Part shown: positions 39,730 through 61,338 of the stretch, piece after piece | Numbering within the stretch: the first letter of the stretch is position 1 | Layout: every line of letters starts with the position of its first letter | NCBI GenBank assembly: GCA_022457155.1 | Contig: JAJGOT010000603.1 | Coordinates: forward strand, 372,001 to 436,000 | Direction: 5' to 3' | DNA length: 64,000 nucleotides | Source: Cladopsammia gracilis | Taxonomy: Eukaryota > Cnidaria > Anthozoa > Scleractinia > Dendrophylliidae | Notes under the pieces: model-generated | Database searches by the model: none | The model's input: only the letters and a program-made list of their open reading frames with translations | What the model was told of the DNA's origin: nothing | Program-made: the position numbers and the translations under genes

Positions 39730-42700
39730 GACCAAGAATATTGTGACCTTCTTCGGTCGGAATATAAAATCTGGTTAGAAGAATTTAAGGAAGTAAACGA
39801 CAAACGTGTCTTATGGGATCTCATTAAATATAAAATAAGACAGCGAACAATCGCCTATAGTAAGGTCAAAGCCCGGGAAAAGAGAGAAAAAATGAACAAT
39901 TTGGAAGAATGTTTAAAAAATTGCACCAAGAAATGTGACACCGATCCTTCTAAAGAAAACGTGGAAGAGCTAGAATGCCTACTAGCAGAATACGAACAAA
40001 TATATGACTACATCACGCAAGGGGCTATTATCCGGTCTCGGGCAACTTGGTACGAACTAGGTGAAAAAAACAACAAATACTTCCTGAATTTAGAAAAATC
40101 TAATCAATCCCAAAACGATTATGAATGAGCTGGAATCATTTTACGCCGATCTTTATGATGGTAGTAGCTATTATCCATCAGATTCAGCTACATCCACGTT
40201 TTTAGATAATTCTCCAACGCTTACAGATGACTTAAGGAATGTCTGCGAAGGAAAAATAGTATGAATGTTATAGATATATAATGAATGTTATAGTGTATTA
40301 GAGACCTTCCCCAAAAATAAAACCCCTGGTAATGATGGTCTGACTATTGAATTCTACTTAGCTTTCTGGCCCTTGATTGGAAGATTACTAGTAGACAGTC
40401 TGAACTATGCATTTGAGTTTGGAGAACTTTCAAACTCGCAGAAGCAGGCAATAATAACATTAATAGAAAAGAAAGGGAGAGATAAAAGATTGATAAAAAA
40501 CTGGCGTCCCATATCGTTGATTAATGTGGACACGAAAATTGCTTCTAAAACTCTAGCAAAGCGCTTAGAAAAGGTCTTACCTGAGATAATACATTCTAGT
40601 CAAAATGCGTTTGTTAAAGGCAGGTCCATCTTCGATGCGATCAGAACGATCGAGGATATGATGGAGTATACAAAAGAGAAGGGATTGTCAGGAATTTTAG
40701 TAGCTATCGACTTTGAGAAGGCTTTTGATACGCTCAACTTTAACTTTCTAATCAGAACACTACACAAGTTTAATTTTGGTCCTTCTTTTATTCAGTGGAT
40801 AAGAACATTATACAATAATGTGTCGAGTTGTGTAATGAACAATGGCTTTACAACAGGTCCGTTTACTGTAAGCAGAGGAGTCAGGCAAGGTGATCCTCTT
40901 TCACCTTATCTTTTCATAATCGCGCTCGAAACGCTAGCCATTAAGATTAGAAATGACGACGCAATCGAAGGTTTTAAAATTGGCGGAGAAACTATCAAAC
41001 TATCTTTATTTGCGGATGATATGACTTGCTTTTTACGAGACAAAGCTTCATATACTTCTCTTTTTGGCATTCTCGAGACTTTTGAGTTATGCTCTGGTCT
41101 GCGTGTCAATCATGAAAAAACGGAAATACTAGCGCTCGGTAAAATTGTTCTACACGAGAAAGACTTTGCTAATCACAACCTTTCTAAAATCATCAAGATC
41201 TTGGGGATTTATTTTGGTTATGATGAAAAACAAAGGAATGATTTAAATTTCCGGCAAACACTGAAATCTATCAAAAAGTCAATCCACATGTGGAAATGGA
41301 GAAACTTATCTCTTCTGGGTAAAATCCAAATTGTTAAAACGTTTGCAATACCTAAGTTTATGTTCAGAGCATCAGTAATCTCAATACCGAAAGAGCTTAA
41401 TAAAGAAGCCAATTCTATTTTCTATAACTATATTTGGAATGGTAAAGATAAAGTCAAGCGGTGTGCGCTTATATCAGATATTGAAAAAGGCGGGCTGAAA
41501 ATGCTAGATATCGATTCTATGATTAGTGCTCGACGTGTAATCTGCTTAAAGAAATTTTTAGAAGACTATTCGAGCCCCTGGAAATTGTTTCTAAATAGTC
41601 ACATTTTACCAGTTGGTGGGAGTCTAGTTTTGCACTGCAATTTTGATACCGTTAAATTAAAAACTCAACTACCGAAATAAATTATTATAAAGATTGTTTC
41701 GAGGCATGGTCATTTTTAAATGGCAGCACACCTACCACCTTTTATGATATTGTGAACGAGATCATTTGGAATAATAAGTTTCTATGCATCGATAAAAAAT
41801 CTGTCTACAGGAATGATCTAGTAAATCTGGGAATTCTAAAGGTAGGAGACCTAATTACGGCTAACAATCTTTTTTTGCACAAAGATCTTAATGCACAAAT
41901 TTCCCCTGAACAGCGGTTCTTTATTATGGGAGTCGTTCACTCCTTCCCAACGGAATGGAAAACGACTATTAAATCTTCCATTAGTGAGAAAGTAGTAGAG
42001 CCCATTCATTCTATACCAATCATAAAATTAAACAGCGGCTCTGTCCCTATCTCTGAAGTCACTTCCAAAAAGATTTATGACTCTTTTTTGCGCCAAAAAC
42101 AAATTCCTCCGACAGCTAAACAGAAATTAACAGACAAGTACCCAGAGGCAGTTATTAACTGGGAAAATGTTTACTCTCTTTCTTTCCGCATAACATTAGA
42201 TTCTAAACTAAGAGAATTTCAATACAAAATTCTAAACAACATTGTTTTTACAAATGAAAAGCTGTTCCGTTTTGGTCTTTTGCAATCACCTGGCTGTACG
42301 TTTTGCCACGAAGAACCAGAGTCCATCGAGCATTTACTCTCCCTTTGTAAAGTGTCGTCTAATTTTTGGAAAGACGTCCTCTCCTGGCTAAAAGACAATA
42401 ATATTCGTATAGAATCTTTAAATGAGAGAGATTTATTTTTTGGAAAGTTTGACATAACAGAAGATTTCTTTATTATTAACCATATTTTACTGTTAGGTAA
42501 ATATTATATTTATTCAAGGAAATGCCACGAAAGTCTACCCTCGTTAAAGGGTTTCATTGCCAGGATAAGACGCGTTTACAAAATCGAGCTCCATATTGCG
42601 AGGGAGAGAAACAAACTTACTATTCATTTTTAAAAATGGGAAAAGTTGTGTTCTACCATGGGTGTAAAATAAGGTAATTAATTTCATTTGCGAACCACCA

Positions 42701-43019: not shown

Positions 43020-43036
43020 ATGTTGATAAGCTTAAC

Positions 43037-43378
43037 AGTAGTTATATAAGGCACTATACGGCACTTTACATCACCCATAAAAGTATCGAATTTTGTCCGT
43101 TAGATTTCCTCGTTAAATTTTTCAAGATTTTTTCAAAAAATCCTCGTTAAATTTCCAAAATTGTCGTTAATTTAGTGTATTTTGGAAATTTTCCTCGGTA
43201 AAAACCCAGTGGGTAACCATCTTACCCGTTTTTGAAAAAATTCTGGCTCACTTTCCAAAAAACACACATCCCTCATGAGGCACTTTCCAAAAAAAAACAT
43301 CCTCATGAGGCACTTTCCAAAAAAAAAAACATCCTCATGAGGCACTTTCCAGATATAGTGTTTTAATCGATACTCATT
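43037..43378 (+). repeat. Polinton left TIR, 342 bp
   Basis: Inverse of 60366-60707, with even the A-run lengths equal. It includes three direct units of GCACTTTCC, an A run and CATCC(C)TCATGAGG; CCTCATGAGG is itself a 10 bp palindrome. Confidence 0.95.
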
Positions 43379-46300
43379 AATATCCGTATGGAAACGTCTC
43401 GATACCAGATTCGGTCTTCACCATACACCGTTTATCGTAACACATCCGAAAGTCTTTTTTCTGGTATTTATTTACAACCTGTTTTGTTAAAGGATCCCGA
43501 GTTATCGCTCGTTCGTTTACGGTTGTTATCTGTTCCTTTTGACCTTCGATGATCTGCTTCATCGTTTTTTGATTTATTTTTTGACTATTTTTGTGATTCA
43601 GAGTGAAACCTTTGACCTTACATTCCATCTTCCCATTACTTGTACTGTAACTGTATGATTTTGGACCAGAACCGCACCAATTCGTAATGTAATGTCCGTT
43701 TAACTCATCGGTTAGATCACCGAGGCTGTCACCTGTTTCGATTCGCTGTCCTCCTTCACGTTCGATATACCAACAGCTGTCGGTGTCAAAACCGAGAACC
43801 TGATCACCGAGTTTATCCAACACTTCATACAGCATCATTCTAGCGTGGCTGGTTGTGAAGGCAGCAATAAATATGTTTGTGTTATTACTATTGTCAACGA
43901 ACTGGCCTTTCAGGTTGTAGGTCATCTCAACCGTATCTTCGTTCAAGAACTGAATGTTCAGATCGTCTATGCTTTCATCTAACAAGATCTTGTAAAATTC
44001 TTTTGGTTCAGTGACGTACACAGTCTGATTCATGTTATTACGCTGACCAAACTTTCCCCATAAGCTACACAGAGAGATCTTACTTATCGCCCTCCTTCCA
44101 GGATTGAACTCAATCTCACCAAGCTCGATTCCTAACTTTGATTTAACAATAGCCTTGTACTCATCAACACTCTTATATGTACAACCTTCCCCAACCTTCA
44201 GCTCACTCGATTCCATCTTGATCTCCATGAACTTTCTTACATAGCTCTTGAAAAGGTCATCTGATCTTTTAGGGAAATGCCACACCTCGTATATCTTTAC
44301 AACCTTGTACCCTTTACAGATCGCCACATTCAGCTCATTTGTGCACCATGTTCCGATGAATGATCGTTCATCATCTGTATGTGTACATTCCTGAATCTTA
44401 TTTTCAGCGCACACTCTACAGAGCGGAAATAGCAGCTTTTCAGCCTTATCGCATCTTATTTTTACCGGTAACACAGGATGATAAAGACCTCTTGGAGGTA
44501 AAACTTTACATTTCACAAAACCAAACCACTCCTTATCGTACTCTTGAGGAGGATCGAATATCTTTGTAGGATGACCTATCGGATAATGCTTGAAGAACTG
44601 TACCGTTGAATATAAACTAACAAAGTCGACATATCTACCTTTCTCACCTTTTTTGAATGTGTAGGTCGGTTTTGTTATATTTGTTCGTCCACCAAAAAAT
44701 GCGTCCCTAGGATTAAGAGGTCCCACAAATTCCCGATTCCACGTTTTTAGAAATTTATTAAACTCTTTCTCCTTTTTCAGTTCACATTCGTAAACCTCAA
44801 CCAGTTCATACCCGGCAGCTCTAATCTTATCGTTTTTCGCTACCGTCCTCTTTCTTAGAGTTAACATATCCATCTGATTTTTTGTGTTGATTGTGTCGCA
44901 TGTATAACACTTCTCACAACCGTGCCAAAAACATCCTTGAAATTCGTAGACCGTATTCCCACAAAACCCGTCAACCTTTCCGATATCTGGTAAAGTCTCT
45001 TCACCACCGTTCAGAGCGTGTTTTATGTTAACACCATCTCTCTGAGAAATCCAATCTAACCAAGCGATGCTACTTTTACTGTAGTTCTCTCCACGTGTAA
45101 TCTCCTTTACAACAGCGATCTTTTCACGACGCATGTGGTTACTTCTGTAGATGGTCATGCATACAGAAGCGATGGTTATATATTGAAGAGGGTCGATGTT
45201 ACCTAACTCGATATACTGTTCTCGAAAAATCAACATACCTCTTCTGAGGATGTCTACATCACTATCACAGTAATCTCTCAACTCCTTCTTCATGTCAAAC
45301 ACATAGTTTTCATCAATACGTTGTTGGTACCATTTTAAGAATTCCTTTCTCGCTGAAGGTTTCATCTGATCATAATCATAGTGTTTCTTATCAGGAATCG
45401 GTCCTACATAGTTTTGGTTACACTTTGTGTTGAAATAATGTGGAAAATACCCTTTTTTCAACTCTTTCAAACCAAATGTCTTTGGGAACGATGATAACCC
45501 CGCAGCGATAAAGTTTATAGAATCAATAAATCTAACACCCTCAGCCTTCATAGACATAATCTTTGTTCCGTTGTAAATAATATCGGGTTTCACTCTGTTC
45601 TCTATACACCAATTTCGAATAAACTGAGCATCGTAACTTTTTGCATTGTGAGCTATGAAGGTATACCCCACATGCTCATCCTTGTTAAAAATAAATTTAC
45701 AAAATTCGTCGAGCGTTTCAAATGTATTTTTATTTCCATAAAAATCGTGACAGACGACTAAATTGATCTCATGAACATCGGTCTCCTGAGTTGCCTCACA
45801 ATCATAGAACATGTATTTATCGGTTCTTGTCCGACAAGGATAACACAAATTTCCAGGTCTACATCCGTAACCTTCACATTTTCCACCCTTACAATGCGAT
45901 TGAGTCATGAAACAAAGATGTTCTTTCATATCACAGTACTTCTTACAATTACTACACTTTGAATATCCGCAGATGTGCTTTTTTAGGTCAAAATTTTTAG
46001 AAGATGTAATTGTACGCTCGCATTTCAAACATTTACCTACTTTTTTACACACAGTGTCGCATGCTCCCCATTTACTTCTGTCACGTAGATGCTCCATAAA
46101 ACAATCTACTCCGAAGAAAGATCTATTACACTTATCGCATGGAATTGGTGGTTTAGAACATTTTTTCCCATCGGGAAAGTATTTAAAACATGCTGTACAT
46201 TTTGCGGGACATCTATGACAATCGCGTTTTGTGTACGGCTTTTTGCAGGTGTGACAATAATAATCTTTACTCAAGAACGCTGGCATACTTGTGATAACGT

Positions 46301-47507
46301 CGAAGTGGTTTTTGTTTTTGTAAAGGTATATCATTTGTCCATCGTACTCATTTTCAGTGGTGAAAATCAGATCATTGAATCGATCACCGTCTACAATGTT
46401 TATCTGAATCTTAAGATGTTCCGCGAATCTCTTTGCATCTTCCAGATCTGAACCGGTTTCCTCGTTAATTTCGACTCCAGCTTCTTTGTGAAGTTTGATA
46501 GCTTCGTCTTTCTGCAATTTTCTCGACCTATTGAACCCATCCTGTAGCTGAGTTTTTGTCCATCTACATTTATTTATGTTTGCGAGAGCCGTCACTATTG
46601 CTCGTGCAAGACAGGTCGAGTCACTATTTTTGATTGTGATGATACTCTTTTTGGTGCTGGCATTTAATTTTGTTACACGTAATCGACCCGCTCCCCGGGG
46701 AACCTTTACCGATTGAATCTCTATTTTGACCTCGGAGAGCGGTACATCCTTGTATTCAATGAATTTAGCTATCTCTTCGATGAGATCCGTATCAAGATCA
46801 CCTGTGATTGTGATCAGTTTTGTACTGACCGGTTTATGCCAACTCGGATGGCTAAGTATCCATCGAATCTTATCACCATTTTGTAGTCCTCTCTCTTTTA
46901 TTACTTTCAAACCAATTTCCAACAATAATATATCGATATCGATTATTGCACGTGGGTTTATTATTTTTACTTTGAATGTGTCGAAAAACGATTGGAACTT
47001 TCTACTTTCCTTTGAAAAGATCTTAACGATCTCATACGAAACTTTATGTTCAACCCCTTTCAAGATGTCAAGCTCGTTGTTGAGCAATTCTCTTTTTGAA
47101 AACAACTGTTTTCTCTGCTTTTTGTTATTTTTCAACTTTTTATTAACCTTTTGGAGTTTTTTCTTGAGCCGCTTGATCTGTTTCTCTTTAGCTTTATTAT
47201 TCACCGGTTGAACAGGTGAGGGCGCTTCAAAGTTTTTCTCTTCTCTTTTCTGCCTGCGGGTTTGTTTGTTTTTTATCTGATAAGGTTTTGGTCTATGTGC
47301 CGGTGGCGGTGGCGGTGCCGGTGCCGGTGGCGGTGGCGGTGGTGGCGGTGGCGGTTCATCTATAAAATTAACGATACCTCGTGGTGGAGTATTTATTCTA
47401 CTTTCAATGAATTTGATCAGGTCCGCTTTCCTCCTATAACGTGAAAAACCTTTCATGCGATGCTCACGCGCAAATGCCTTAAGCTGTTCAACAGTTTTTG
47501 ACTCCAT
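43377..47507 (-). CDS. polB: Protein-primed-type DNA polymerase B
   Basis: 1376 residues; replicates the element. N-terminal SAP-like module (about 1-40), a proline tract (50-70), a basic coiled coil (100-150), a region with NSDSTCLARAI...H (about 300-410) seen in invertebrate Polinton polymerases, and a Cys-rich array (about 415-560). The 3'-5' exonuclease has FYDCEAT, FIAHNAKSYDAQF and DYCDSDVDILRRG. The polymerase has motif A DFVSLYSTV (about 960), motif B KISLCSLWGKFG and motif C DTDS (about 1240). ATG at 47507 is the first in frame. Its stop overlaps the inner end of the left TIR. Confidence 0.95.
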   Translation of the reverse strand: MESKTVEQLKAFAREHRMKGFSRYRRKADLIKFIESRINTPPRGIVNFIDEPPPPPPPPPPAPAPPPPPAHRPKPYQIKNKQTRRQKREEKNFEAPSPVQPVNNKAKEKQIKRLKKKLQKVNKKLKNNKKQRKQLFSKRELLNNELDILKGVEHKVSYEIVKIFSKESRKFQSFFDTFKVKIINPRAIIDIDILLLEIGLKVIKERGLQNGDKIRWILSHPSWHKPVSTKLITITGDLDTDLIEEIAKFIEYKDVPLSEVKIEIQSVKVPRGAGRLRVTKLNASTKKSIITIKNSDSTCLARAIVTALANINKCRWTKTQLQDGFNRSRKLQKDEAIKLHKEAGVEINEETGSDLEDAKRFAEHLKIQINIVDGDRFNDLIFTTENEYDGQMIYLYKNKNHFDVITSMPAFLSKDYYCHTCKKPYTKRDCHRCPAKCTACFKYFPDGKKCSKPPIPCDKCNRSFFGVDCFMEHLRDRSKWGACDTVCKKVGKCLKCERTITSSKNFDLKKHICGYSKCSNCKKYCDMKEHLCFMTQSHCKGGKCEGYGCRPGNLCYPCRTRTDKYMFYDCEATQETDVHEINLVVCHDFYGNKNTFETLDEFCKFIFNKDEHVGYTFIAHNAKSYDAQFIRNWCIENRVKPDIIYNGTKIMSMKAEGVRFIDSINFIAAGLSSFPKTFGLKELKKGYFPHYFNTKCNQNYVGPIPDKKHYDYDQMKPSARKEFLKWYQQRIDENYVFDMKKELRDYCDSDVDILRRGMLIFREQYIELGNIDPLQYITIASVCMTIYRSNHMRREKIAVVKEITRGENYSKSSIAWLDWISQRDGVNIKHALNGGEETLPDIGKVDGFCGNTVYEFQGCFWHGCEKCYTCDTINTKNQMDMLTLRKRTVAKNDKIRAAGYELVEVYECELKKEKEFNKFLKTWNREFVGPLNPRDAFFGGRTNITKPTYTFKKGEKGRYVDFVSLYSTVQFFKHYPIGHPTKIFDPPQEYDKEWFGFVKCKVLPPRGLYHPVLPVKIRCDKAEKLLFPLCRVCAENKIQECTHTDDERSFIGTWCTNELNVAICKGYKVVKIYEVWHFPKRSDDLFKSYVRKFMEIKMESSELKVGEGCTYKSVDEYKAIVKSKLGIELGEIEFNPGRRAISKISLCSLWGKFGQRNNMNQTVYVTEPKEFYKILLDESIDDLNIQFLNEDTVEMTYNLKGQFVDNSNNTNIFIAAFTTSHARMMLYEVLDKLGDQVLGFDTDSCWYIEREGGQRIETGDSLGDLTDELNGHYITNWCGSGPKSYSYSTSNGKMECKVKGFTLNHKNSQKINQKTMKQIIEGQKEQITTVNERAITRDPLTKQVVNKYQKKDFRMCYDKRCMVKTESGIETFPYGY

Positions 47508-47556
47508 ACGTAAGTATCTTATATCAATATATTTTATTTTTTAATACCATTTTAAA

Positions 47557-47584
47557 TTTTCATTTCACGTTCATGAAATGAAAA
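47557..47584 (-). terminator. Hairpin after integrase stop
   Basis: TTTTCATTTCA/TGAAATGAAAA, 11 bp arms and 6-base loop, 11 nt downstream of the integrase stop. Same stem as at 59638-59667. Confidence 0.5.
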
Positions 47585-47594
47585 GAAGAGATCT

Positions 47595-48602
47595 TCACCG
47601 CAGGTCTTTCAATTCTTTCAGATCTACCCAAGAGTTGAATTTATCGCTATACCCGCTCCACTTCACTAACGCTTTACCTTTTCGAGCATCTCGTCGAATC
47701 ACTTTCTCAATACGGTAAACGTCTTGAACAGCCTTCTGCAGCTCTTCCGTATAGAAAGAACCCGTTATCTCCTCACCCAGCTCATCTTTCAGTTTATAAG
47801 TTATAGGGTTAGTGTATCGAATCTTATCGATAGTAAAAATCTCTTCAGTCCAATTCGGTGTGTAACCTTTATCGAAAACAGGACGTTTATATTTTGATAT
47901 TCGAACTTTATCCCCAACTTTAAATTTCGGGTTAGTATATATCCGTCTCTTCTTACCGTACAGATTTAAGTAAACAGCACTTTCGTTCTTTTTCTTCGAC
48001 GCTTCCACAGGTGTCATACCGATGCTTCGATGTTTTGAATTATTGTATTCTTTCAATATCATCGGTAATATATCATAATACACGGTATTGTTTTGAACGG
48101 TAAATTGTTTATACATTTTCTCTTTTATCGTACGGTTCCATCTTTCACAAACACTAGATTTTTCTTCATTCTCTGTCGAATACATCACTATCTTATTTTT
48201 ATCCAACAGTTCTTTCATATTCTTGTTGTAATACTCTTTTCCCTTATCCACCCACAGCATTTTCGGTTTTCTTCCTTTCTTGAATATTGTTTTGAACGCT
48301 TCCCTAACGGTCTCTCCCTTTTTATTCTTCAACGGTACAATCCAACCGTATTTACTGAAAACATCTAACACCATGAGAAGATATCGATATCCCTTATTCC
48401 ACCTACTTAATTTCTGCATCTCGACAAGGTCGGAACACCATATCTCATCGATACCGTTTACAATAACACGCCGCCGAGTAAACTTTCGTCTTATAGGTTT
48501 ATGCAGCTCATCTGCAAGCTTTTCTTGCCACGTCTCTACGTTTTTACTCGGCGGCCTTATCCGTTTCCCAACCCAAGTTTTTGTTTTACGTCGATAGTAT
48601 TT
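47595..48602 (-). CDS. int: Polinton integrase with chromodomain, no start codon of its own
   Basis: The rve core has D in CSDLVEM (codon 48429-48431), D in WVDKGKEYY and E in CERWNRTIKEK; a chromodomain-like end (RIEKVIRRDARKGKALVKWSGYS) follows. The frame is open from 48602, but its first ATG (48417-48419) lies after the first catalytic Asp, so ATG initiation would give a dead enzyme. The 5' part overlaps the PLA2-like gene in the -1 frame, with a G GGA AAC heptamer two codons before that gene's stop. I infer production as a -1 frameshift fusion. No N-terminal zinc HHCC motif is visible. Confidence 0.9.
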   Translation of the reverse strand, partial: KYYRRKTKTWVGKRIRPPSKNVETWQEKLADELHKPIRRKFTRRRVIVNGIDEIWCSDLVEMQKLSRWNKGYRYLLMVLDVFSKYGWIVPLKNKKGETVREAFKTIFKKGRKPKMLWVDKGKEYYNKNMKELLDKNKIVMYSTENEEKSSVCERWNRTIKEKMYKQFTVQNNTVYYDILPMILKEYNNSKHRSIGMTPVEASKKKNESAVYLNLYGKKRRIYTNPKFKVGDKVRISKYKRPVFDKGYTPNWTEEIFTIDKIRYTNPITYKLKDELGEEITGSFYTEELQKAVQDVYRIEKVIRRDARKGKALVKWSGYSDKFNSWVDLKELKDLR

Positions 48603-49132
48603 CTAGCTAACCAGTGACCCCATTGTCGATCACTATAGGGCACGCTATCCAAAGCTTTCACCATTTTTCTATCCGCTTCGTTTTTACATTTACGCGGTTC
48701 CGGCTTATTTGCGCACACAGAATAATCGACGTCATGCTGCATCGCTATAGCATCCGTTTCACCCGTCGGTTTATCGTAGATCTCCAGTATTTTACCTGTT
48801 TCCGGATCATACGTCAGTTGCGAATCCAAGTCATTGTATGGTCCTGTGTATTTATGTCCGGGTAATGTCCATCCTCCTTTCGGTTTCGGAAGCTTACCGA
48901 TCATTTTATGAATATCGACACCGCTACCGTGGTGAAGCGGATCGAGTCTTTTCGATAAGTCTCCTGTGAAACTGTCCAAAGCCTGATCTATATACTTATT
49001 AGCGGCTGATCTAATCTTTTTCTTTACAAAGTCTGATTTGATGGCTTTTGACGCTCCTATTTTTCCTAAATTGTAAAGACCTTTCATACCGGCTTTCATA
49101 GCTATCTCTCCAAGACTATGACTACCTTCCAC
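48557..49132 (-). CDS. Virion protein with parvovirus-type phospholipase A2 domain
   Basis: 191 residues. N-terminal amphipathic helices (GEIAMKAGMKGLYNLGKIG), then a calcium-loop-like PGHKYTGPYNDLD and a catalytic AMQHDVDYS with His-Asp, plus KCKNEADRKM. This is the layout of capsid-associated PLA2 domains that breach endosomal membranes in parvoviruses. Function here is inferred from motif. It precedes integrase, which overlaps its last 46 bases in the -1 frame. Confidence 0.8.
   Translation of the reverse strand: MEGSHSLGEIAMKAGMKGLYNLGKIGASKAIKSDFVKKKIRSAANKYIDQALDSFTGDLSKRLDPLHHGSGVDIHKMIGKLPKPKGGWTLPGHKYTGPYNDLDSQLTYDPETGKILEIYDKPTGETDAIAMQHDVDYSVCANKPEPRKCKNEADRKMVKALDSVPYSDRQWGHWLARNTIDVKQKLGLGNG
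48563..48569 (-). other. Candidate -1 ribosomal frameshift site, G GGA AAC
   Basis: Read in the PLA2-like frame: TTG GGA AAC GGA TAA. The X XXY YYZ heptamer is in phase, and a -1 shift enters the integrase frame exactly. No strong downstream pseudoknot is evident by eye. Confidence 0.7.
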
Positions 49133-49164
49133 ATCAAAAAAGCCCCCACCTTGTAGGGGCCCAA

Positions 49165-49323
49165 CTAGTTTTCCGAACTCTTAACGAAACGGGTTTTCTT
49201 GATTCCGCAATTAGCGCAAGTGCACCAAAACATAGGCCTACCATTTTTAGCTGTCATATAACCGGATGGTTCAGTACAACCGGTTTTTATTTTTTCCTTA
49301 ACACAATACGTTAACGACTCCAT
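49165..49323 (-). CDS. Small zinc-ribbon protein, DUF5679-like
   Basis: 52 residues, ATG at 49321-49323, stop at 49165-49167. Pattern YCVK...NGRPMF..CTCANCGIKKTRF fits the treble-clef/zinc-ribbon proteins (DUF5679-like) common in nucleocytoviruses and related elements. The usual second Cys of the first pair appears displaced to GC-T. Exact role unknown. Confidence 0.7.
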   Translation of the reverse strand: MESLTYCVKEKIKTGCTEPSGYMTAKNGRPMFWCTCANCGIKKTRFVKSSEN

Positions 49324-49331
49324 GTGTAAGC

Positions 49332-49356
49332 TTTATTATACGATCTGTATAATAAA
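49332..49356 (-). terminator. Hairpin after protease stop
   Basis: TTTATTATAC/GTATAATAAA with a 5-base loop, 15 nt downstream of the protease stop. It has AATAAA on both strands. Confidence 0.5.
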
Positions 49357-49371
49357 ACTTTTTAATTTTAA

Positions 49372-49824
49372 TTACATGAAATATTTTTTAATAAACTTTT
49401 CATTGTAGTTTTGATTATCGATTTTGAATCTACTTAGGCAATCATAAAATGATTTTTTGTAAATATTATCAAGAAAATATAAACAATAATAACCGCATCT
49501 TACTGATTTTATAGCTTGAAACGGGTAACCGATATTATATTGATATTCCATACCCGATTTTATAGCATAATCAATGAAATCTTGTGGTGGCGGTAAACAA
49601 AACGAATCAAAATAATATATGAGATTTTTATTTTTTACAAATGTAGCTACCCAATGTGTACCGTTCCCTATCTTATCATCAAGATTAATTATACAACATC
49701 CTGTTTTGCCTGTCGGATGACTGTCTCTCGAAAAAATACCTTGGAAATCAGGTATTTTTAAGTATCTTACCCATTCAAGGAGGTCAAAATTACTTAGCGG
49801 TACATCCCTAAATTTGGGTTTTTT
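49372..49824 (-). CDS. pro: Adenain-like maturation cysteine protease, no start codon of its own
   Basis: 150 codons open from a TGA at 49825-49827 to the stop at 49372-49374. Catalytic His in GNGTHWVATF, Asp in YYFDSFCLPPPQ and Cys in RCGYYCLYFL define the Ulp1/adenain fold used for virion maturation. The first in-frame Met is well past the catalytic His, so ATG initiation cannot give an active protease. Its 5' end overlaps the upstream virion gene in the -1 frame at an A AAA AAC heptamer. Confidence 0.85.
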   Translation of the reverse strand, partial: KKPKFRDVPLSNFDLLEWVRYLKIPDFQGIFSRDSHPTGKTGCCIINLDDKIGNGTHWVATFVKNKNLIYYFDSFCLPPPQDFIDYAIKSGMEYQYNIGYPFQAIKSVRCGYYCLYFLDNIYKKSFYDCLSRFKIDNQNYNEKFIKKYFM

Positions 49825-50570
49825 TCACCCCATGATCCGTAAAAAGGCGGAGGTTGGTATGGAAACTTTGGAGATCCTCTACCTTCTCTTTTCGGTACCT
49901 GTAATCCGTATCCTTCTCTTGGACTTACAGATAATCCTTTTCCAAAAAGTTTTGAAGCTAGCTCTATAGCCATAGGAATTCCGATTGCAGCAAGTGTTCC
50001 TAAAAATCCTCCATTTTGCTGTCTTTGCGTAGGTTTAAATGTTATACCGCTACCGGTTTGCATACCTTTTCTCACAACTTGCGCTTGCCTTTGTGTTAAT
50101 CCTTTTATACGTAGTAGTTGAGGAAGAAAATCAAACGGTATCGTAATACCGCTACCAAAAATCTTATCGATACCGAGACTTCCCAAAGCGCCTAACGCTC
50201 CTGTAGCTAAATGAGGTAATACTTTTGTAGCTGCTTTTGTAGCTAAAGGTACTACCTTTGTTGCCGCTTTTGTAGCAAAAGGTAGTAACTTTGCACCGAG
50301 TGACATCAACGAGGTCCACAAACTTCCACCTACGGTGATCGCTTTACGAATCTGTGTTTTAGATATTTTGATATCGGTACCGGTACCGTTTTTTAGCGCT
50401 TTATTAATCTTATTAATCTGGGTTTTTGTCAACAACAGTTCATGCGACCCTTTCAAATTATTCTTACTCAACCTTATCGTAATTTCTGAATTATCGTCAT
50501 ATGCTTTTTTAAGTTTATGTAGCTGTCCTTGAGACAGATCTACTCCATATGCAAAATACGCTGTAGCCAT
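49794..50570 (-). CDS. Putative virion protein with LSxxQ modules and hydrophobic middle
   Basis: 258 residues. N-terminal modules VDLSQGQLHKLKKA and LLTKTQINKINKA, ISKTQIRKAI, then Ala/Leu-rich helices (residues about 80-130, ATKAATKV repeats) and a GGFLGTLAAIGIP segment, ending in a proline/glycine-rich tail. Position between protease and major capsid genes suggests an internal or membrane-active virion protein. Its 3' end overlaps protease by 31 bases. Confidence 0.7.
   Translation of the reverse strand: MATAYFAYGVDLSQGQLHKLKKAYDDNSEITIRLSKNNLKGSHELLLTKTQINKINKALKNGTGTDIKISKTQIRKAITVGGSLWTSLMSLGAKLLPFATKAATKVVPLATKAATKVLPHLATGALGALGSLGIDKIFGSGITIPFDFLPQLLRIKGLTQRQAQVVRKGMQTGSGITFKPTQRQQNGGFLGTLAAIGIPMAIELASKLFGKGLSVSPREGYGLQVPKREGRGSPKFPYQPPPFYGSWGEKNPNLGMYR
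49818..49824 (-). other. Candidate -1 ribosomal frameshift site, A AAA AAC
   Basis: Read in the virion-protein frame: GAA AAA AAC CCA. The heptamer is in phase and is a classical retroviral -1 slippery sequence. A -1 shift enters the protease frame, just after that frame's TGA. Confidence 0.75.
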
Positions 50571-50603
50571 TTTTTATTTTACAAAATATAATTTTAATTA
50601 GAT

Positions 50604-51902
50604 TTACGCTTTTATTAATATTTTTCCGGATGATGTGTATAACTCTATCTCTTTTTCGTGTAAGACTAAAGCATTCAATCTATAATTTGTTGGATTTGCT
50701 CCGTTTAATTCATAATTAAAAGTAAGTGCAACCACACCATCTTTTACATCTTCTTCTTGGTTTCTAAGATTAAAGTATAGAATTCCAAAAAGATTTCTGA
50801 AATTTGATCGGTCAATTATTGTTCCGCTTAAAAAGTCGTTGTAAGCGGAACTGTAGGATAACAAAGCTCTGTAAAGTCTTGACTCCTCATCTGATGTCAT
50901 CTCTAATTGAGGATACCGGATGCTGTTATTTATTTGCAAGTGTGCTCTAGAAAAATATCGATTGTTTGCACCGATACTAAATGTTTTGAAAGTAAATATA
51001 TTTTGCTCCTGATTACTATAACTTGCCTCGGGAACAACCCAGATGAAAACATGCCTCGGTCTCCTAATACCTGTACTTATTCGAAAGGAGCTATTTATAG
51101 AGGATGTTTGAAATATTTCGGTATGTTCTCTCAAATAAGTCCATTTTTTGGGTTTCAGATAATCGTTAAGATACTGTTTCATTCCTAAACCGTTGAAAAT
51201 AATTTTTGGACACCACAATCTTAATTTTGTTAAGATCACTTTACTATTTGGAGCAGCTCCTTTTCTGAAAATTATATTGTTATCGCTTTCAAGTTCTATG
51301 AGAAGATTTGTCTTGATATTCGGGTGAAGATTATTTTTGAAAGCTGCAAAATAGCTGTATAGATTTAACGGAATCGATATCTTATTGATAGCTGCAGCAT
51401 CCGTCAAAATCTTTCTTCTAGCAAAACCTTCGTTATATAGCGCTTGAGCCGGTCGTGCTTCTGTTGTTCCCGTGGATGAATCTAAATATAAAAACTGATC
51501 TTTACCGATCGTGTCGGCATAACTTTTTGTATATTTTAAGAGGGAAAGTACGTTCGATGTTTCGTTGGCTCTTGTGTTATTGTAAACCGTTATCCCGTTG
51601 CATTCAACCTGAATCTGTTTTATAAATGTATGACCGTTAGTTGTGGTACAATCTTGATTTCCGTTATTCGGTCCGGCTACTATCCCGGTTGTACTATCGG
51701 CAAGCGTAACAAGTTTGAAATCTACTTCCAGATAAGCGTTATACCAATCGATCGGATTTGCTTCTGAAGAGTTATCAACCGTGAATCGATAATTATCCTT
51801 AACTTGCCTATTATTATTTGCGACATTATCGATTAGCGGTGTTTGCAAATCGTAGGATACGTATTCATAACGTTTGACCAATTCTGGATTTCTGAAATTC
51901 AT
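50604..51902 (-). CDS. mcp: Major capsid protein (double jelly roll)
   Basis: 432 residues. The start FRNPELVKRYEYVSYDLQTP, ANPIDWYNAYLEVDF, and later NTRANETSNVLSLL and SIPLNLYSYF fit the double-jelly-roll major capsid of Polintons/adintoviruses. It lies in the usual place beside the minor capsid gene, and its length is normal for the family. Confidence 0.85.
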   Translation of the reverse strand: MNFRNPELVKRYEYVSYDLQTPLIDNVANNNRQVKDNYRFTVDNSSEANPIDWYNAYLEVDFKLVTLADSTTGIVAGPNNGNQDCTTTNGHTFIKQIQVECNGITVYNNTRANETSNVLSLLKYTKSYADTIGKDQFLYLDSSTGTTEARPAQALYNEGFARRKILTDAAAINKISIPLNLYSYFAAFKNNLHPNIKTNLLIELESDNNIIFRKGAAPNSKVILTKLRLWCPKIIFNGLGMKQYLNDYLKPKKWTYLREHTEIFQTSSINSSFRISTGIRRPRHVFIWVVPEASYSNQEQNIFTFKTFSIGANNRYFSRAHLQINNSIRYPQLEMTSDEESRLYRALLSYSSAYNDFLSGTIIDRSNFRNLFGILYFNLRNQEEDVKDGVVALTFNYELNGANPTNYRLNALVLHEKEIELYTSSGKILIKA

Positions 51903-51926
51903 TCTTATTATGAATTATAATAAGAA
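51902..51926 (-). terminator. Hairpin after the 133-residue gene
   Basis: TTCTTATTAT/ATAATAAGAA with a 5-base loop, 13 nt downstream of the stop at 51940; it abuts the capsid start codon. Confidence 0.45.
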
Positions 51927-51939
51927 ATTATTTTTAAAA

Positions 51940-52341
51940 TTAGATCAGTTCATTTACGATATTTCTGATATATTGAAATTTGTCTTCTTTCTTCTCCTTC
52001 TCGTTTAAAAATTTAATAATATCGACTCCTTTTGTTTCACCTGAGATTTGTGGCGGTGGCGGTTGTGCTGGTGCAGCTGCAGCAGGTTCTTTTTTACCTC
52101 TTGATGAAAACTTGTCATAAATTTTTTCACCAAGAACTTCACCAGTTTTTTGACCGACCTGTTCAGCACCTTTTTCAATAAGTTTTTCTGCTGCTTTACT
52201 AGCCAATTTACTCGCTGTTTTTCCTGTTATGGTTTTTCCGATTTTTGTAAGTGTATCAAAGAGACCGGAACCATACTCTATAGAGTCAATATAAGAAATT
52301 TCTCCCGTATCAAAATCTCTTACTCTTCTTTGTTCTTCCAT
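51940..52341 (-). CDS. Small amphipathic virion-type protein, unrecognised
   Basis: 133 residues. A glycine-led helix (GSGLFDTLTKIGKTITGK) and an Ala/Lys/Glu helix (KLASKAAEKLIEKG) precede an Ala/Pro linker. It sits between the two capsid genes, so a minor virion or cement role is plausible, in the manner of adenovirus internal proteins. No family assignment. Confidence 0.65.
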   Translation of the reverse strand: MEEQRRVRDFDTGEISYIDSIEYGSGLFDTLTKIGKTITGKTASKLASKAAEKLIEKGAEQVGQKTGEVLGEKIYDKFSSRGKKEPAAAAPAQPPPPQISGETKGVDIIKFLNEKEKKEDKFQYIRNIVNELI

Positions 52342-52363
52342 TTTATAAATTCTAAATAAATTT

Positions 52364-53125
52364 CTATACTTCTTTTAACACTACAGTTATAGAGATATCG
52401 ATGTCGTTCAGATCAACAATTCTATCTTCATCGTCGGCCAAGTAAAAGGTTACTTCGGATATGTCTTTTCTATTTATCTTATGCCACAGATAGTTCACTC
52501 TCGGGTAGATTTCAAAAGGTAAAGACCTTGTTTTTGTATTTGTTGAGAATGTGAATAAGGTATTGCTTCGCTTTCCTGAAACGATCGAATCGCTCAACAA
52601 ACTACATTTTACGTAAAGATTATCGATGCTGTTACTGATATTAGGGAAATTTTTTCCGTAACCGCTGCTCGTTAAAACTTTCGATTCGAATCCGAGTAAA
52701 ATATTAAAATTTCCACTCGAACGGAAATCGATGCGATAATTTTCATTCAATTGAATAAATACCTTGTAAGTTGTAAGATCAAACATTACGCTAATTCCAT
52801 ATTCCTCCGTGTTAGGTATCTTACCGATCCTTTTGTGGATAAGATCATTTATATCTTCGTAATCATAAACCCCTGATGGAAAAGTAATCGTTTCGTACGT
52901 TTGACCTTTATCTTTTGATATTTTTAGTTTGTTGTTATCATATTCGGGACGAATGTTATGCCAACTTGCGGTCATGCTAAGATGATCCAATGCCAAAAAA
53001 CATTGTTTATTATCGTCCAATAACAGCTCAGGAGTAAACCTTACAGTAAAATTTCCCGGTTTATTATTAGGATTTTGTTTTCTTGCATCTATAGATTTGA
53101 AAACTAGCGTTCTGTTAACATCCAT
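52364..53125 (-). CDS. Minor capsid protein (penton-like, single jelly roll)
   Basis: 253 residues. RTLVFKSIDARKQN, NFTVRFTPELLL, ITFPSGVYDYEDINDLI and GFESKVL are typical of Polinton minor capsid proteins, which form the pentons. It lies immediately upstream of the 133-residue gene and the major capsid gene on the same strand, 22 bases apart. Confidence 0.8.
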   Translation of the reverse strand: MDVNRTLVFKSIDARKQNPNNKPGNFTVRFTPELLLDDNKQCFLALDHLSMTASWHNIRPEYDNNKLKISKDKGQTYETITFPSGVYDYEDINDLIHKRIGKIPNTEEYGISVMFDLTTYKVFIQLNENYRIDFRSSGNFNILLGFESKVLTSSGYGKNFPNISNSIDNLYVKCSLLSDSIVSGKRSNTLFTFSTNTKTRSLPFEIYPRVNYLWHKINRKDISEVTFYLADDEDRIVDLNDIDISITVVLKEV

Positions 53126-53152
53126 TTTTATTATACGATCCGTATAATAAAA
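53126..53152 (-). terminator. Perfect hairpin after the 390-residue gene
   Basis: TTTTATTATACG/CGTATAATAAAA, 12 bp arms, ATC loop, 16 nt after the stop at 53169 and directly before the minor capsid ATG. Confidence 0.55.
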
Positions 53153-53168
53153 CCTTTTTAATTTTTAA

Positions 53169-54341
53169 TTACGCTAAATATTTTTTATATAATTTCTCAT
53201 GAGCTGTCTTATCTATCGCTCCTATTCTTAACAGCTCATCGAAGATCTGCGATAAATCATTTCTCAAAACAGGTGAATTGTTACCGGCGGCCATCGAACC
53301 TATTATTATCTTCATTCTGTCTGCCAATTTGTTGGGATCATCATAATAAACTATACTTGAACCGACTATTTTCGATTTACCCGATGATTTATGAGGAGGT
53401 AGATTACTCAACATATTTAAATCGTTAAAAACTTTTACAGCGTTCATACTATATTTTGTTTTAGGATTGTATCTTTTCGTTAGTAAATCGATCAGCGATT
53501 TATCAGCATCGGCTTGATAAATTAATTTTCCACCACGATAAGCGTTTAGTTTCTTATCTTTCATTAGCTTAGGCATGTCGATTAAGAGACCACCATATTG
53601 ATTATTTTTTTGAATTTTATAAGCGTTTCGTCTCGGTTGTTTGTACTTGCGTACCCCTTCACCTTGTTTTTGTTTTGTATATTGCGGTAAAATTTTTACA
53701 TTCTTAATCGTTGTTAAATATCTGTCTAATATATCTCTTGTTCTTTCATATATTTTCAGATCATAATCGAGTTGTTGTTTTTCTTCTTCTGTCTTTGGTT
53801 TTCTCCTTTTCAAGCCACCTATCTTTATTCCGACACTTCTGTTTTCATCTTTAGCTTCATTATAAGTTTCAGATAGCTCGTGATCGCTCATTTTAAGTAG
53901 CTCGTTAGGTTCGTGAAAAGTTTCTTTTAAAAATTCTAATTCGGTTTCTGTGAACATCTTATTTGGTTCAGCAGTTATTACTTTACCCGGTGGTGGTGCA
54001 GGTATCGGTAGCGTATCCGTTGGTGGTTGGTCACCGCCAGGAAATGGTAGCTCTTTATTCAATGTTAAAATATCTTTGTTAGTTTCAACCAAATCTTTGA
54101 AACCGCTGGTTAGAGCCAATTGATTTTCTTTCAATTGCTGAATGACTTTGTCCTGTTTTTCATCTGTTCTACGTTGTTGTTCAATTAGCGGTTCTCTCAG
54201 AGTTTTAAAATAATCACTCATCGCAACATCGCGAACCTGTTCTTTATTTTTAACCTCATTCTTTACTTCGGTAACCGCTTTAGCGATTTTAAAACCTTCA
54301 AATTCTAAATCGGCATATTTTTTAATCTTATTAAGATCCAT
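53169..54341 (-). CDS. Coiled-coil Polinton protein, conserved but of unknown function
   Basis: 390 residues: helical N-terminus with heptad-like Lys/Glu pattern (1-80), proline-rich linker (about 100-120), an acidic helical region, then a conserved-looking C-terminal block with QYGGLLIDMPKLM, LNAYRGGKLIYQADADKS and KSGKS. Proteins of this layout accompany capsid genes in Polintons/adintoviruses; a structural or assembly role is inferred. Confidence 0.65.
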   Translation of the reverse strand: MDLNKIKKYADLEFEGFKIAKAVTEVKNEVKNKEQVRDVAMSDYFKTLREPLIEQQRRTDEKQDKVIQQLKENQLALTSGFKDLVETNKDILTLNKELPFPGGDQPPTDTLPIPAPPPGKVITAEPNKMFTETELEFLKETFHEPNELLKMSDHELSETYNEAKDENRSVGIKIGGLKRRKPKTEEEKQQLDYDLKIYERTRDILDRYLTTIKNVKILPQYTKQKQGEGVRKYKQPRRNAYKIQKNNQYGGLLIDMPKLMKDKKLNAYRGGKLIYQADADKSLIDLLTKRYNPKTKYSMNAVKVFNDLNMLSNLPPHKSSGKSKIVGSSIVYYDDPNKLADRMKIIIGSMAAGNNSPVLRNDLSQIFDELLRIGAIDKTAHEKLYKKYLA

Positions 54342-54345
54342 AACT

Positions 54346-54484
54346 TATTATTTAAATATCTGTAAAATAAACATTTAAGTTATTTTTAAATATCTGTAAA
54401 ATAAACATTTAAGTTATTTTTAAATATCTGTAAAATAAACATTTAAGTTATTTTTAAATATCTGTAAAATAAACATTTTAAGTT
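54346..54484. promoter_or_regulatory. Four 34 bp tandem repeats in the divergent promoter region
   Basis: AAATATCTGTAAAATAAAC plus ATTTAAGTTATTTTT repeats four times (copies start 34 bp apart) exactly between the leftward and rightward gene blocks. It may hold promoter or origin sites. Confidence 0.6.
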
Positions 54485-54504
54485 TATCGACCTTATTAAA
54501 TAAA

Positions 54505-55140
54505 ATGAAAATACCGAATTATGATGTGATAAAAAGTAACGATAATAATCGTTCACTAAATGATTTTCTTAATGAAGATTTTCGTATGTTGATAACCGGT
54601 CAAACTCGATGCGGTAAAACAAACACCTTAATGCATATTCTTAGAAAGCCGCTCATTTACTACGATAAGATTTATCTATACTCGCCAAATCAACATCAGG
54701 ATAAAATTCAAGACTTGCAAAAATTAATGGAAAACGCTAGTCAAAGAGTTGGATATGATATTTTAGAACTTTACGGAGAAGATGATATTATGGACACAAC
54801 AGACTATCCGATCGATAATAGAAAAGTGGTGGTTTTTGATGATCTTATTAACGCTCCCCAAGCAGTTCAAAACAAAATCGCCAATCATTATACCGATGGT
54901 CGACATCATAAAATTTCCCCGATCTATCTATCCCAGTCTTACTACGATGTTCCACAGAAACTTCGACAGAACTGTTCCCACATGATTTTGTATCCGCCGA
55001 CGACTAAAAAGCATCTGAATCTGATTGCGCAAGAAAATCTAATAGATCCGGCTCTTTTCGATAAACTCGGTCCATATGAATTCTTATTTTTAGACAAAGA
55101 AAAGAAAAGTGTTACCAAGAACTTTGATGAGACTTTTTAA
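54505..55140 (+). CDS. A32/HerA-FtsK-type DNA-packaging ATPase
   Basis: 211 residues. Walker A GQTRCGKT, Walker B VVVFDDL and a sensor-like YLSQSYYDVPQKLRQNCS define the A32-type packaging ATPase of Polintons and nucleocytoviruses. It likely pumps element DNA into capsids. First of the rightward genes, 24 bases before the fibre-like gene. Confidence 0.9.
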   Translation: MKIPNYDVIKSNDNNRSLNDFLNEDFRMLITGQTRCGKTNTLMHILRKPLIYYDKIYLYSPNQHQDKIQDLQKLMENASQRVGYDILELYGEDDIMDTTDYPIDNRKVVVFDDLINAPQAVQNKIANHYTDGRHHKISPIYLSQSYYDVPQKLRQNCSHMILYPPTTKKHLNLIAQENLIDPALFDKLGPYEFLFLDKEKKSVTKNFDETF

Positions 55141-55164
55141 AATTATATGAAATAAGAATAGAGT

Positions 55165-56970: not shown

Positions 56971-56986
56971 TTTTTACGCGATTCAA

Positions 56987-57015
56987 AATTTATTATACGC
57001 CACGTATAATAAATT
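56987..57015. terminator. Perfect hairpin between convergent genes
   Basis: AATTTATTATACG/CGTATAATAAATT, 13 bp arms, CCA loop, 16 nt after the fibre-like stop and 15 nt after the stop of the leftward gene at 57031, so it can serve both. AATAAA on both strands. Confidence 0.6.
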
Positions 57016-57030
57016 AGATGATCTTTCACA

Positions 57031-57165
57031 CTAGTGTGTAGCGTGTTCAAGCGCTTCTACGACCTCTCTAGCGATTTCTCGAGTTTCTCTTAACCATTGA
57101 GGAGATAAATCTTGAAAGATATGCTCATTTATAAAAGAGACAAGAATGAAAGCGAATGCGATCAT
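57031..57165 (-). CDS. Small hydrophobic-start protein, unrecognised
   Basis: 44 codons with ATG at 57165. MIAFAFILVSFI could be a signal or membrane segment, followed by a charged helix (RETREIAREVVEALE). It diverges from the next rightward gene by 30 bases. Small, so uncertain. Confidence 0.4.
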   Translation of the reverse strand: MIAFAFILVSFINEHIFQDLSPQWLRETREIAREVVEALEHATH

Positions 57166-57195
57166 TTTTAAAATTATATTATTATTCTTTATAAA

Positions 57196-57678
57196 ATGAG
57201 ATACGATCTTTTTGCATTCAATCACATCGATACATCGATCGATGAGACAAAATTAACAGCTATCAAATCCCTTTACAGTTTTTATCACAAGAAATGGTGG
57301 TGTTATAAAAAGACTTTTAGACATCTCAAACGGATGAATCTCTTGTGTAAACTGTCTTCATCCTCTCTTATCGCAGGTGGTACGATTGCCGGTGGAATTA
57401 CGTTGAACCCTGTTATTTTAGGTGTCATTTCCGGTGCAGGGTTGTTGGTCAAAACATTTACCGATTATAAAAATTATAACCGACGGATCGAGATGAGTAA
57501 ATTTGCATTTACAACATACCAGAAAGTTTTGGTTGATTTACGGTCTTGCTTACGTGGAAAACAGTTCGATCACGAATCGTTTGTTAACGATATGAGGTTG
57601 ATCGATGAGATAATCATCGATTTATGCCCAGTAATAAATAACCGAATCGAAGATCGATATGATAAAAAATTCAAATGA
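57196..57678 (+). CDS. Putative membrane protein of unknown function
   Basis: 160 residues. YHKKWWCYKKTFRHLKRMN precedes two hydrophobic Gly-rich segments (about 55-85: AGGTIAGGITLNPVILGVIS), then a helical region. The layout resembles small two-helix membrane proteins seen in Polintons and large DNA viruses (SLATT-like). AATAAATAAA follows the stop. Confidence 0.6.
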   Translation: MRYDLFAFNHIDTSIDETKLTAIKSLYSFYHKKWWCYKKTFRHLKRMNLLCKLSSSSLIAGGTIAGGITLNPVILGVISGAGLLVKTFTDYKNYNRRIEMSKFAFTTYQKVLVDLRSCLRGKQFDHESFVNDMRLIDEIIIDLCPVINNRIEDRYDKKFK

Positions 57679-57710
57679 ACATAAAGATTTGGTATTAAAT
57701 AAATAAAACA

Positions 57711-58911: not shown

Positions 58912-58954
58912 GAAAAAATGGTCTTAAAGAAAATAATTTGTAATACTAACAAAC

Positions 58955-59626: not shown

Positions 59627-59637
59627 ATATCTGTTTA

Positions 59638-59667: not shown

Positions 59668-59703
59668 ATCGTCTTAAAAAATAAATATGGTAATATAACA
59701 AAT

Positions 59704-60381
59704 ATGAATCCTTCAAAAGTTTTAGAATATTTATCGAATATTATTTTCCATAAACCGGTAAAAAACAGCAAAACCGGTTTTGAAATAATCAAAATTGAAA
59801 CCCGTTACGGACCGCTAGTAATCGATTCACCATTTCTTACAATTTTGGGTGTAAAAGAGACATATAGTCAAAACGAAAGTAGTAAACTACTTGGTTACAC
59901 CATTCCTGTTCGCTTATACGGTGAAGAAGGATGCAGTCGAATGTCAACGAAAGAAGAAGAAAAGTTTATTGATTGTATGGTTTTTATTAGAGACATCTGT
60001 AGGCGACATTTAAAAAGTGTTTATGGTGAAAAAATAGCTAATAAGATAAAAGGTATTTTTTATGGTTTTCAGTTTGAAGGTATGGGTACAAGAATTACTG
60101 GGGGATCGATTCGATCTGAAATGTTTAATGTTAAACTTAACAGATATTCAAAACAAAGGGATAAGATCTTAACAAGAATCGCAAAGAGAAAGCTAGAAAA
60201 AGTCAAATTGGCTCTGATTATTGATAGTATCTATATCAGCAAAGAAGAAGTTTCATTTCAAGTTACGGTACATGATATATATGTTAACCCACAAGATTCG
60301 CTACTAACAATACCTGAAGAAAGCGAAGAGGATGAAGTTTTTTCTTCAAACTGTCCTGTGTTAACAATGAGTATCGATTAA
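59704..60381 (+). CDS. Nucleocytovirus-like protein, possible ssDNA-binding, copy 2
   Basis: About 225 residues from ATG 59704, chosen because the upstream Met (59623) would run through the hairpin and because this start aligns with copy 1 (IIFHKPVKN, GPLVIDSPFL, LLGYTIPVRLY, KLALIIDSIYIS, PEESEEDE). Tandem duplicate of copy 1, well diverged. Its last five codons and stop lie within the right TIR. Confidence 0.6.
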   Translation: MNPSKVLEYLSNIIFHKPVKNSKTGFEIIKIETRYGPLVIDSPFLTILGVKETYSQNESSKLLGYTIPVRLYGEEGCSRMSTKEEEKFIDCMVFIRDICRRHLKSVYGEKIANKIKGIFYGFQFEGMGTRITGGSIRSEMFNVKLNRYSKQRDKILTRIAKRKLEKVKLALIIDSIYISKEEVSFQVTVHDIYVNPQDSLLTIPEESEEDEVFSSNCPVLTMSID

Positions 60382-60707
60382 AACACTATATCTGGAAAGT
60401 GCCTCATGAGGATGTTTTTTTTTTTGGAAAGTGCCTCATGAGGATGTTTTTTTTTGGAAAGTGCCTCATGAGGGATGTGTGTTTTTTGGAAAGTGAGCCA
60501 GAATTTTTTCAAAAACGGGTAAGATGGTTACCCACTGGGTTTTTACCGAGGAAAATTTCCAAAATACACTAAATTAACGACAATTTTGGAAATTTAACGA
60601 GGATTTTTTGAAAAAATCTTGAAAAATTTAACGAGGAAATCTAACGGACAAAATTCGATACTTTTATGGGTGATGTAAAGTGCCGTATAGTGCCTTATAT
60701 AACTACT
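60366..60707 (-). repeat. Polinton right TIR, 342 bp
   Basis: Inverse of the left TIR with no difference seen by eye. Confidence 0.95.
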
Positions 60708-61338
60708 GTCAGTACTTGTAACAAAAAAAAAGTTAACATTGTAAGTTAAAATCCAAGCTGAAAGTTTAATCTTGAAGAATTGAGGACCAAGAGGTATAGA
60801 AGATGCTTAAAGGTTTTATTTGCCTACGGTAGTACAAATTTCAACCAAACTAAACATTCACAACTGATGACTGTTTCTCACCTAATTATTAGTCCAGTTA
60901 CAATGTGGTTAGCTTATAAAAAATTGGATATCTTCACGCTCCCTGTCCCCGTATGGCAGTATTAAAGGATACCAATACCTGTTACTATAGCAACAATACC
61001 TTGGCCACTCCTGAGACTACCAAATCAATCAGACTGCAAATTATGCTTACTAATGTTTAGCCGGGGCGTGGGGGGGGGGATCAAAATCATTATGACTACC
61101 TGGTAGAAATTTAAAAACAATGGTCTGATCTTCTGTCCACATGCAGTAAATTGTGGCATTGCATGTATTTAACTTTAATCCCACAGTCATATTCACATTA
61201 AAAAAACAATATTGCAACAACAAACAGTGACATTCTCTCTGTGGTGGTGATAATCATTCTGTATTTTGTATTGCACATGACTGTGAACATTCTGCAAAAT
61301 CTATGGATTTATAATGTATTCCCTCTAACTGGAACAAA
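60708..61338. other. No gene seen
   Basis: AT-rich flank of the Polinton; a G-run near 61070. Confidence 0.5.

Follow-up and report, generated by a model that had tools for sequence, protein, structure and literature searches.

The window analysed here is a 64,000-nucleotide (nt) stretch of the stony coral Cladopsammia gracilis (assembly GCA_022457155.1, contig JAJGOT010000603.1, positions 372,001 to 436,000), and it contains a Polinton at window positions 43035 to 60709 in which three programmed −1 ribosomal frameshift sites very probably join neighbouring genes, two of them in series. On the minus strand the genes follow in the order pVI-like gene, protease, DUF5679, PLA2-like gene, integrase and PolB; the sites lie between PLA2 and integrase (junction J1), between DUF5679 and PLA2 (J2) and between the pVI-like gene and protease (J3). 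The observed basis consists of the frames, the heptamers and their phase, the spacing, the stems, their covariation and conservation; slippage at the junctions, and its rate, we infer from these. A preliminary description of the window had proposed two such sites, one feeding each enzyme. Reading the frames confirmed both heptamers at their positions and in the correct phase, and likewise that integrase and protease each begin in −1 near the 3′ end of the upstream gene. The count, however, is three, as the DUF5679-PLA2 junction at 49174-49168 had been overlooked, and the claim that −1 sites feed the enzymes has good support for integrase and fair support for protease.

At J1, the PLA2-like frame (48557..49180, minus strand; PF08398, E-value 1.1e-9) ends in TTG GGA AAC GGA TAA, with its stop at 48559-48557 and the slippery heptamer G GGA AAC at 48563..48569. 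The integrase frame (47595..48602, minus strand; rve PF00665 and chromo PF00385) is open in −1 from 48602. Its first methionine is residue 62, past D58, which we take to be the first catalytic aspartate of the DDE motif. In the 878-Mb host assembly, where searches scored the best candidates only, at least 120 integrase copies were scored and J1 was read in 84 distinct elements after removal of 16 duplicates. In 64 of these, integrase lies in −1 and the overlap holds a canonical heptamer in phase (48 GGGAAAC, 16 AAAAAAC), and six more were assigned to the same class by eye (L017, L021, L055, L059, L078 and L100). Three are in −1 without a usable heptamer (L064, as well as L067 and L071, in which a stop follows the heptamer), one is in +1 (L074) and one is unclassified (L096). 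Where the frames are split, at J1 as at J3, the heptamer is retained in most copies, not all.

The heptamer is followed by a long stem whose 13-nt arms lie at 48543..48555 (5′ arm, starting 7 nt past the heptamer) and 48470..48482 (3′ arm), both on the minus strand. Among the 69 loci with enough sequence, a stem of 10-14 base pairs (bp) starts exactly 7 nt past the heptamer in 67, the exceptions being L073 and the single-frame L084, and the two arms lie about 45-65 nt apart. Stem scores of at least 11 were obtained for 66 of the 69, compared with 4 of 2069 positions chosen at random within these loci, some of which might coincide with the site. The 90-nt fold of the window copy has a z score of −4.9, and none of 300 shuffles was as low; no Rfam match up to E 1 was found in the region 47500-50700. 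Between lineages the stem changes on both sides from A-U to G-C (GAGTAAA/TTTACTC versus GAGTGAA/TTCACTC). Compared with L121, L122 and L125, the window integrase is saturated at synonymous sites (proportion of synonymous differences, pS, 0.73-0.82; of nonsynonymous differences, pN, about 0.2), whereas ratios of nonsynonymous to synonymous substitution (dN/dS) of 0.19-0.24 were obtained against L123, L124 and L126. The −1 phase, the canonical heptamer and the stem 7 nt downstream persist at synonymous saturation.

Conservation exceeding what the protein requires was found at J1 in the arm codons and at J2 as covariation. In the −1 rows, the codons TTY ACT CGG CGG CGY of the J1 3′ arm differ silently at 0-1 of 4-5 sites and those immediately upstream vary at 3-8 of 8-12, a comparison restricted to rows with at least three changes outside the arm. 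Single-frame lineages provide a natural control: L082, L083, L085, L087 and L088, and also L084, carry AGA, AGG or CGA arginine codons at the arm, and the silent constraint is gone where no frameshift is needed. Because it still keeps the arm, single-frame L081 looks like a recent change to one frame.

The DUF5679-PLA2 junction is among the most textbook-like of the three. The DUF5679 open reading frame (ORF; 49165..49323, minus strand; 52 amino acids, PF18930, E 4.1e-9) ends in TCG GAA AAC TAG, so that the slippery site G GAA AAC (49168..49174, minus strand) is directly followed by the stop, and the PLA2 frame opens slightly upstream in −1. Of 68 loci, duplicates included, 47 share the G GAA AAC of the window, 18 carry canonical G GGA AAC and three U UUA AAC. 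The zero-frame stop is adjacent to the site in all but L103 and L104, where it comes later (66 of 68), and PLA2 reads in −1 at every locus except L101, which is +1 (67 of 68). Four loci fall outside the pattern, one of L001-L060 plus L102, L110 and L112; by eye, L110 is −1, DUF5679 and PLA2 share a frame in L112, and in L102 PLA2 reads in +1 with no overlap. A hairpin of 10 bp with a 3-nt loop (49140..49162, minus strand) starts 5 nt past the site in the window, and hairpins of 7-10 bp stand 4-7 nt past it in 67 of 68 loci, the one in L104 being imperfect. This hairpin covaries. Its 13 stem sequences include six distinct 7-bp cores that each pair 7/7 with their own arm; when 3′ arms were swapped between cores, none of 22 combinations paired fully (mean 4.9 of 7), and the stem columns change from C-G to A-U, from C-G to G-C and from A-U to C-G. 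Immediately past J2 lies an LQGG|G stretch that appears to resemble the adenain cleavage consensus.

At J3, the upstream gene is an ORF of 258 amino acids with 2849 relatives and no Pfam match (49794..50570, minus strand); the name pVI-like, for a minor capsid-type protein, is an analogy. It reads GAA AAA AAC over the heptamer A AAA AAC (49818..49824, minus strand) and stops at 49796-49794, while the protease frame (49372..49824, minus strand) opens at 49824, directly past a TGA, in −1. Within the window lineage (66 loci, counting duplicates), the letters A AAA AAC are found in 55, and 61 have the protease in −1 with an in-phase heptamer. A frame of 149-156 amino acids was present in 147 of 150 protease matches. 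A pseudoknot search downstream of J3 gave a weak candidate only, equalled by 3 of 60 shuffles. By eye, locus L003 carries a retroelement integrase-like fragment in place of the protease region.

The protease assignment goes beyond a Pfam match, which was weak (E 0.0054, under the cut-off). A profile of the frame and its relatives matches adenovirus proteinase (1avp, E 2.9e-4) and S273R of African swine fever virus (E 5e-6), and the predicted model (mean pLDDT, a per-residue confidence score, 90) has adenovirus 2 proteinase 1nln as its top fold match (E 6.5e-7). Given the profile matches and this best fold match, the predicted protein is adenain-like. Its first methionine is residue 92, downstream of the catalytic H57 and D73. 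It had been proposed beforehand that neither enzyme has an ATG ahead of its catalytic residues, and this holds for both in the window.

Across the ORFs of the element, 32 of 4940 codon positions carry a canonical in-phase heptamer, so that heptamers by themselves are no proof; the chance of finding one is about 9% for the J1 overlap alone and about 6% for the J3 overlap alone. The sites nevertheless stand well above chance because conservation, spacing and structure hold across lineages. Moreover, a list of the in-phase heptamers along the element has 34 entries (the 32 canonical ones plus G GAA AAC twice), of which only five, all at the three junctions, open a −1 ORF longer than 19 amino acids; these ORFs measure 324 (J1), 205 (J2) and 147-150 (J3) amino acids. 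Elsewhere, an in-phase T TTA AAC at 52009, near the 3′ end of an ORF of 133 amino acids (51940-52341), opens a −1 tail of 19 amino acids only.

Several observations weigh against frameshifting at these junctions. PLA2 and integrase share one frame in nine of the 84 J1 elements (L081-L089; a heptamer pattern had suggested −1 for L084, which was counted as single-frame once its frames were read). Many copies are near-identical, so that 81 J1 loci, clustered on the 180 nt upstream of the heptamer, form 8 clusters at 80% identity and 16 at 95%, with L084 its own cluster at both levels; the heptamer letters differ between clusters and the phase is constant. At J2, the window site G GAA AAC departs from a strict X XXY YYZ, and the energy of the window hairpin is equalled by 10 of 300 shuffles, making it moderately special. 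At J3, no downstream fold clearly beating shuffles was found; eight further places include three that are single-frame and one with the A-run out of phase, and the protease is in +1 of the pVI-like gene in five of the 66 loci (L016, L103, L104, L105 and L108). A uniformly −1 J3 was dropped on account of these five, which may reflect indels in the A-run or another recoding. Finally, L061 and L063 carry an ATG in the integrase frame upstream of the heptamer, inside the overlap.

If short introns joined the frames and removed the stops, the heptamers would be incidental, and splicing deserves consideration for an element transcribed in the nucleus of an animal. It would permit any phase, however, whereas −1 is found in 67 of 68 J2 loci, in 61 of 66 J3 loci and in the large majority of split J1 loci, and it needs no heptamer, fixed spacer or paired coding stems; we regard it as very unlikely. 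Transcriptional slippage on A-runs, giving mixed mRNAs of which some carry the fused frame, has about the same slim prospects. A-runs are present in J3 and in the AAAAAAC form of J1, and A-run length differs between copies so as to give single-frame versions (L113 and L114), but J1 and J2 of the window lineage (GGGAAAC and GGAAAAC) contain no run of more than four A, and a stem at fixed distance is a signal to the ribosome, not to the polymerase.

It is similarly improbable that integrase, protease and PLA2 each start independently by internal or near-cognate initiation. The overlap ATGs of L061 and L063 would suit this, as would the ATG at codon 28 of the window PLA2 frame, its first, because of which J2 may not be the sole route to PLA2. 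Set against them are the window integrase and protease, which lack any ATG ahead of the catalytic residues, and the first 67 codons of the protease frame, where a scan for near-cognate starts found ATA and ATT only; the conservation of heptamer and stem would also be left unexplained. Decay, in which broken one-frame fusion genes carry heptamers by chance, is scarcely credible even though one-frame relatives exist and some copies hold stops and indels, as 113 of 120 scored integrase copies have no internal stop, dN/dS is low against three lineages and the same phase recurs at synonymous saturation; with long −1 ORFs behind in-phase heptamers confined to the junctions, decay and chance were rejected.

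Relatives in which a single open frame spans the parts, looked for as possible counter-evidence to frameshifting, do exist. DUF5679, PLA2 and integrase form single-frame proteins in P0013, P0024 and P0100, whose best local integrase identity to the window is 70-76%, and the pVI-like protein and protease share one frame in P0202. Rough counts in other species, obtained by text patterns on protein lists with heptamers deduced from protein letters only, show further combinations. Of 6595 integrase relatives, the best 120 include 38 with PLA2 and integrase fused in a single ORF and up to 20 whose N-terminus may be read through the overlap; named matches include the stony corals Stylophora pistillata and Oculina patagonica. 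Of the best 120 of 1998 PLA2 relatives, taken from proteins of 114-362 amino acids, among which PLA2-integrase fusions cannot appear, 52 end in a KN motif, the one expected from A AAA AAC, 56 share their ORF with DUF5679 and two show both. For the pVI-like protein (best 120 of 2849), 12 relatives contain protease sequence in the same ORF and 72 carry an SPF..IP tail, 38 of these with GKN. Third-frame tails (..ARDCC, ..ARGYY), akin to the +1 J3 loci, end some pVI relatives elsewhere. Viral contigs scanned with integrase alone and with an alignment yielded no confirmed relatives. Lineages thus differ in which junctions are split and which are in one frame, and the one-frame relatives support the fusion as the product, show that it is tolerated and make plain that frameshifting is not universal.

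Under programmed −1 frameshifting, most ribosomes would terminate at the DUF5679 stop, and some would slip at J2 on G GAA AAC or G GGA AAC, aided by the hairpin 5 nt downstream, to give DUF5679-PLA2. Part of those, or ribosomes initiated at the ATG of PLA2, would slip at J1 on G GGA AAC or A AAA AAC, aided by the long stem 7 nt downstream, and produce PLA2-integrase. On the pVI-like gene, mostly pVI would be made, and some ribosomes would slip at J3 on A AAA AAC into pVI-protease. The protease would presumably cut the fusions, and virion proteins might, as the preliminary description supposed, carry the enzymes into the particle as their tails. For the clade of coral-type Polintons as a whole we consider it reasonably likely that a gag-pro-pol-like scheme with three −1 sites, two in series and one for the protease, limits the catalytic enzymes to rare extensions of virion proteins and so brings them into the particle, the scheme persisting while heptamers and stems turn over.

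The element is flanked by 344-bp terminal inverted repeats (43035..43378 and 60366..60709) that match perfectly (100% complementary). Internal repeats around CCTCATGAGGCACTTTCCA lie within them at 43249-43351 and 60393-60495. Polintons produce target site duplications of about 6 bp; none of 5-8 bp was found at the ends of the window copy (43034/60710), despite the identical inverted repeats. In addition to these repeats, the integrase with its chromodomain and the adenain-like protease, a PolB of the DNA_pol_B_2 family (43377..47507, minus strand; PF03175, E 6.7e-40) and an A32-like packaging ATPase (54505..55140, plus strand; PF04665, E 2.2e-11) place the element among Polinton/Maverick (adintovirus-like) elements, and the integrase of a Stylophora coral adintovirus (P0077) is among the matches to that of the window. 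Candidate ORFs for a double jelly-roll major capsid protein and a penton (50604-51902 and 52364-53125) gave no Pfam match. A Rho_N/SAP-like stretch, with a Pfam score below the cut-off, was seen at the PolB N-terminus (the 47507 end). On the plus strand, the neighbouring ORFs 58955-59626 (DUF2738, E 1.5e-31) and 59623-60381 look like paralogues, and two small ORFs (57711-57911 and 58535-58831) share a similar KGW..L..A.L motif. Immediately outside the Polinton, ORFs at 40373-42633 resemble, by eye, non-LTR-type reverse transcriptases.

If this reading is correct, an integrase-bearing DNA transposon has its enzymes translated in a way regarded as characteristic of retroviruses and retrotransposons, which raises the question of convergence versus shared ancestry with retroelement recoding. 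The headless look of the integrase and protease genes would be explained, fusion peptides would be expected in host proteomes, and a possible entry route of both enzymes into the Polinton particle would be at hand; this entry is an open step, since according to PMC8097293 Maverick particles had not been observed. While −1 frameshifting itself is already known, the preliminary description knew of no account of it in Polintons. That holds in part: the 2024 preprint PMC11071296, the one paper found to bear on the question, in its accessible portion reports KnotInFrame hints, labelled hypothetical, of −1 shifts near the 3′ ends of adintovirus Penton genes and proposes a similar relationship for Hexon-Adenain, with none suggested there for integrase or PLA2. 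Polinton recoding is not described in the accessible parts of PMC8097293, PMC10120064 and PMC12567637, and in searches of the literature on Polinton, Maverick and adintovirus frameshifting we found neither the three-site arrangement nor integrase by frameshift nor covariation evidence.

Comparison with known systems begins with those adintoviruses, which belong to the same virus group and in which adenain is likewise proposed to be attached to a virion gene by a −1 shift; as far as the available text of PMC11071296 goes, the upstream partners are Penton and Hexon and the hypothesis comes from KnotInFrame, whereas here the protease has a pVI-like partner, the proposal extends to integrase and PLA2, and the evidence is comparative and includes covariation. 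The one-frame relatives P0013, P0024 and P0100 have the same domains in the same order and differ in their single open frame, which needs no frameshift. Adenovirus shares the protease fold and a functional tie between pVI and protease, and the title of the 1nln entry names an 11-residue cofactor; there the tie is a cleaved, pVI-derived peptide cofactor, whereas in the window Polinton it would be a translational fusion. Retroviral gag-pro-pol genes of the mouse mammary tumour virus and human T-lymphotropic virus type use double −1 frameshifting, and the likeness extends to two successive −1 shifts on one message, a canonical heptamer with a short spacer and downstream structure, and an enzyme placed as the C-terminal tail of a structural-type protein, with integrase and protease metered. 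The Polinton differs in being a double-stranded DNA element without a reverse transcriptase among its ORFs, in which the proposed shifts would connect DUF5679, PLA2 and integrase and, separately, a pVI-like protein and an adenain-type cysteine protease.

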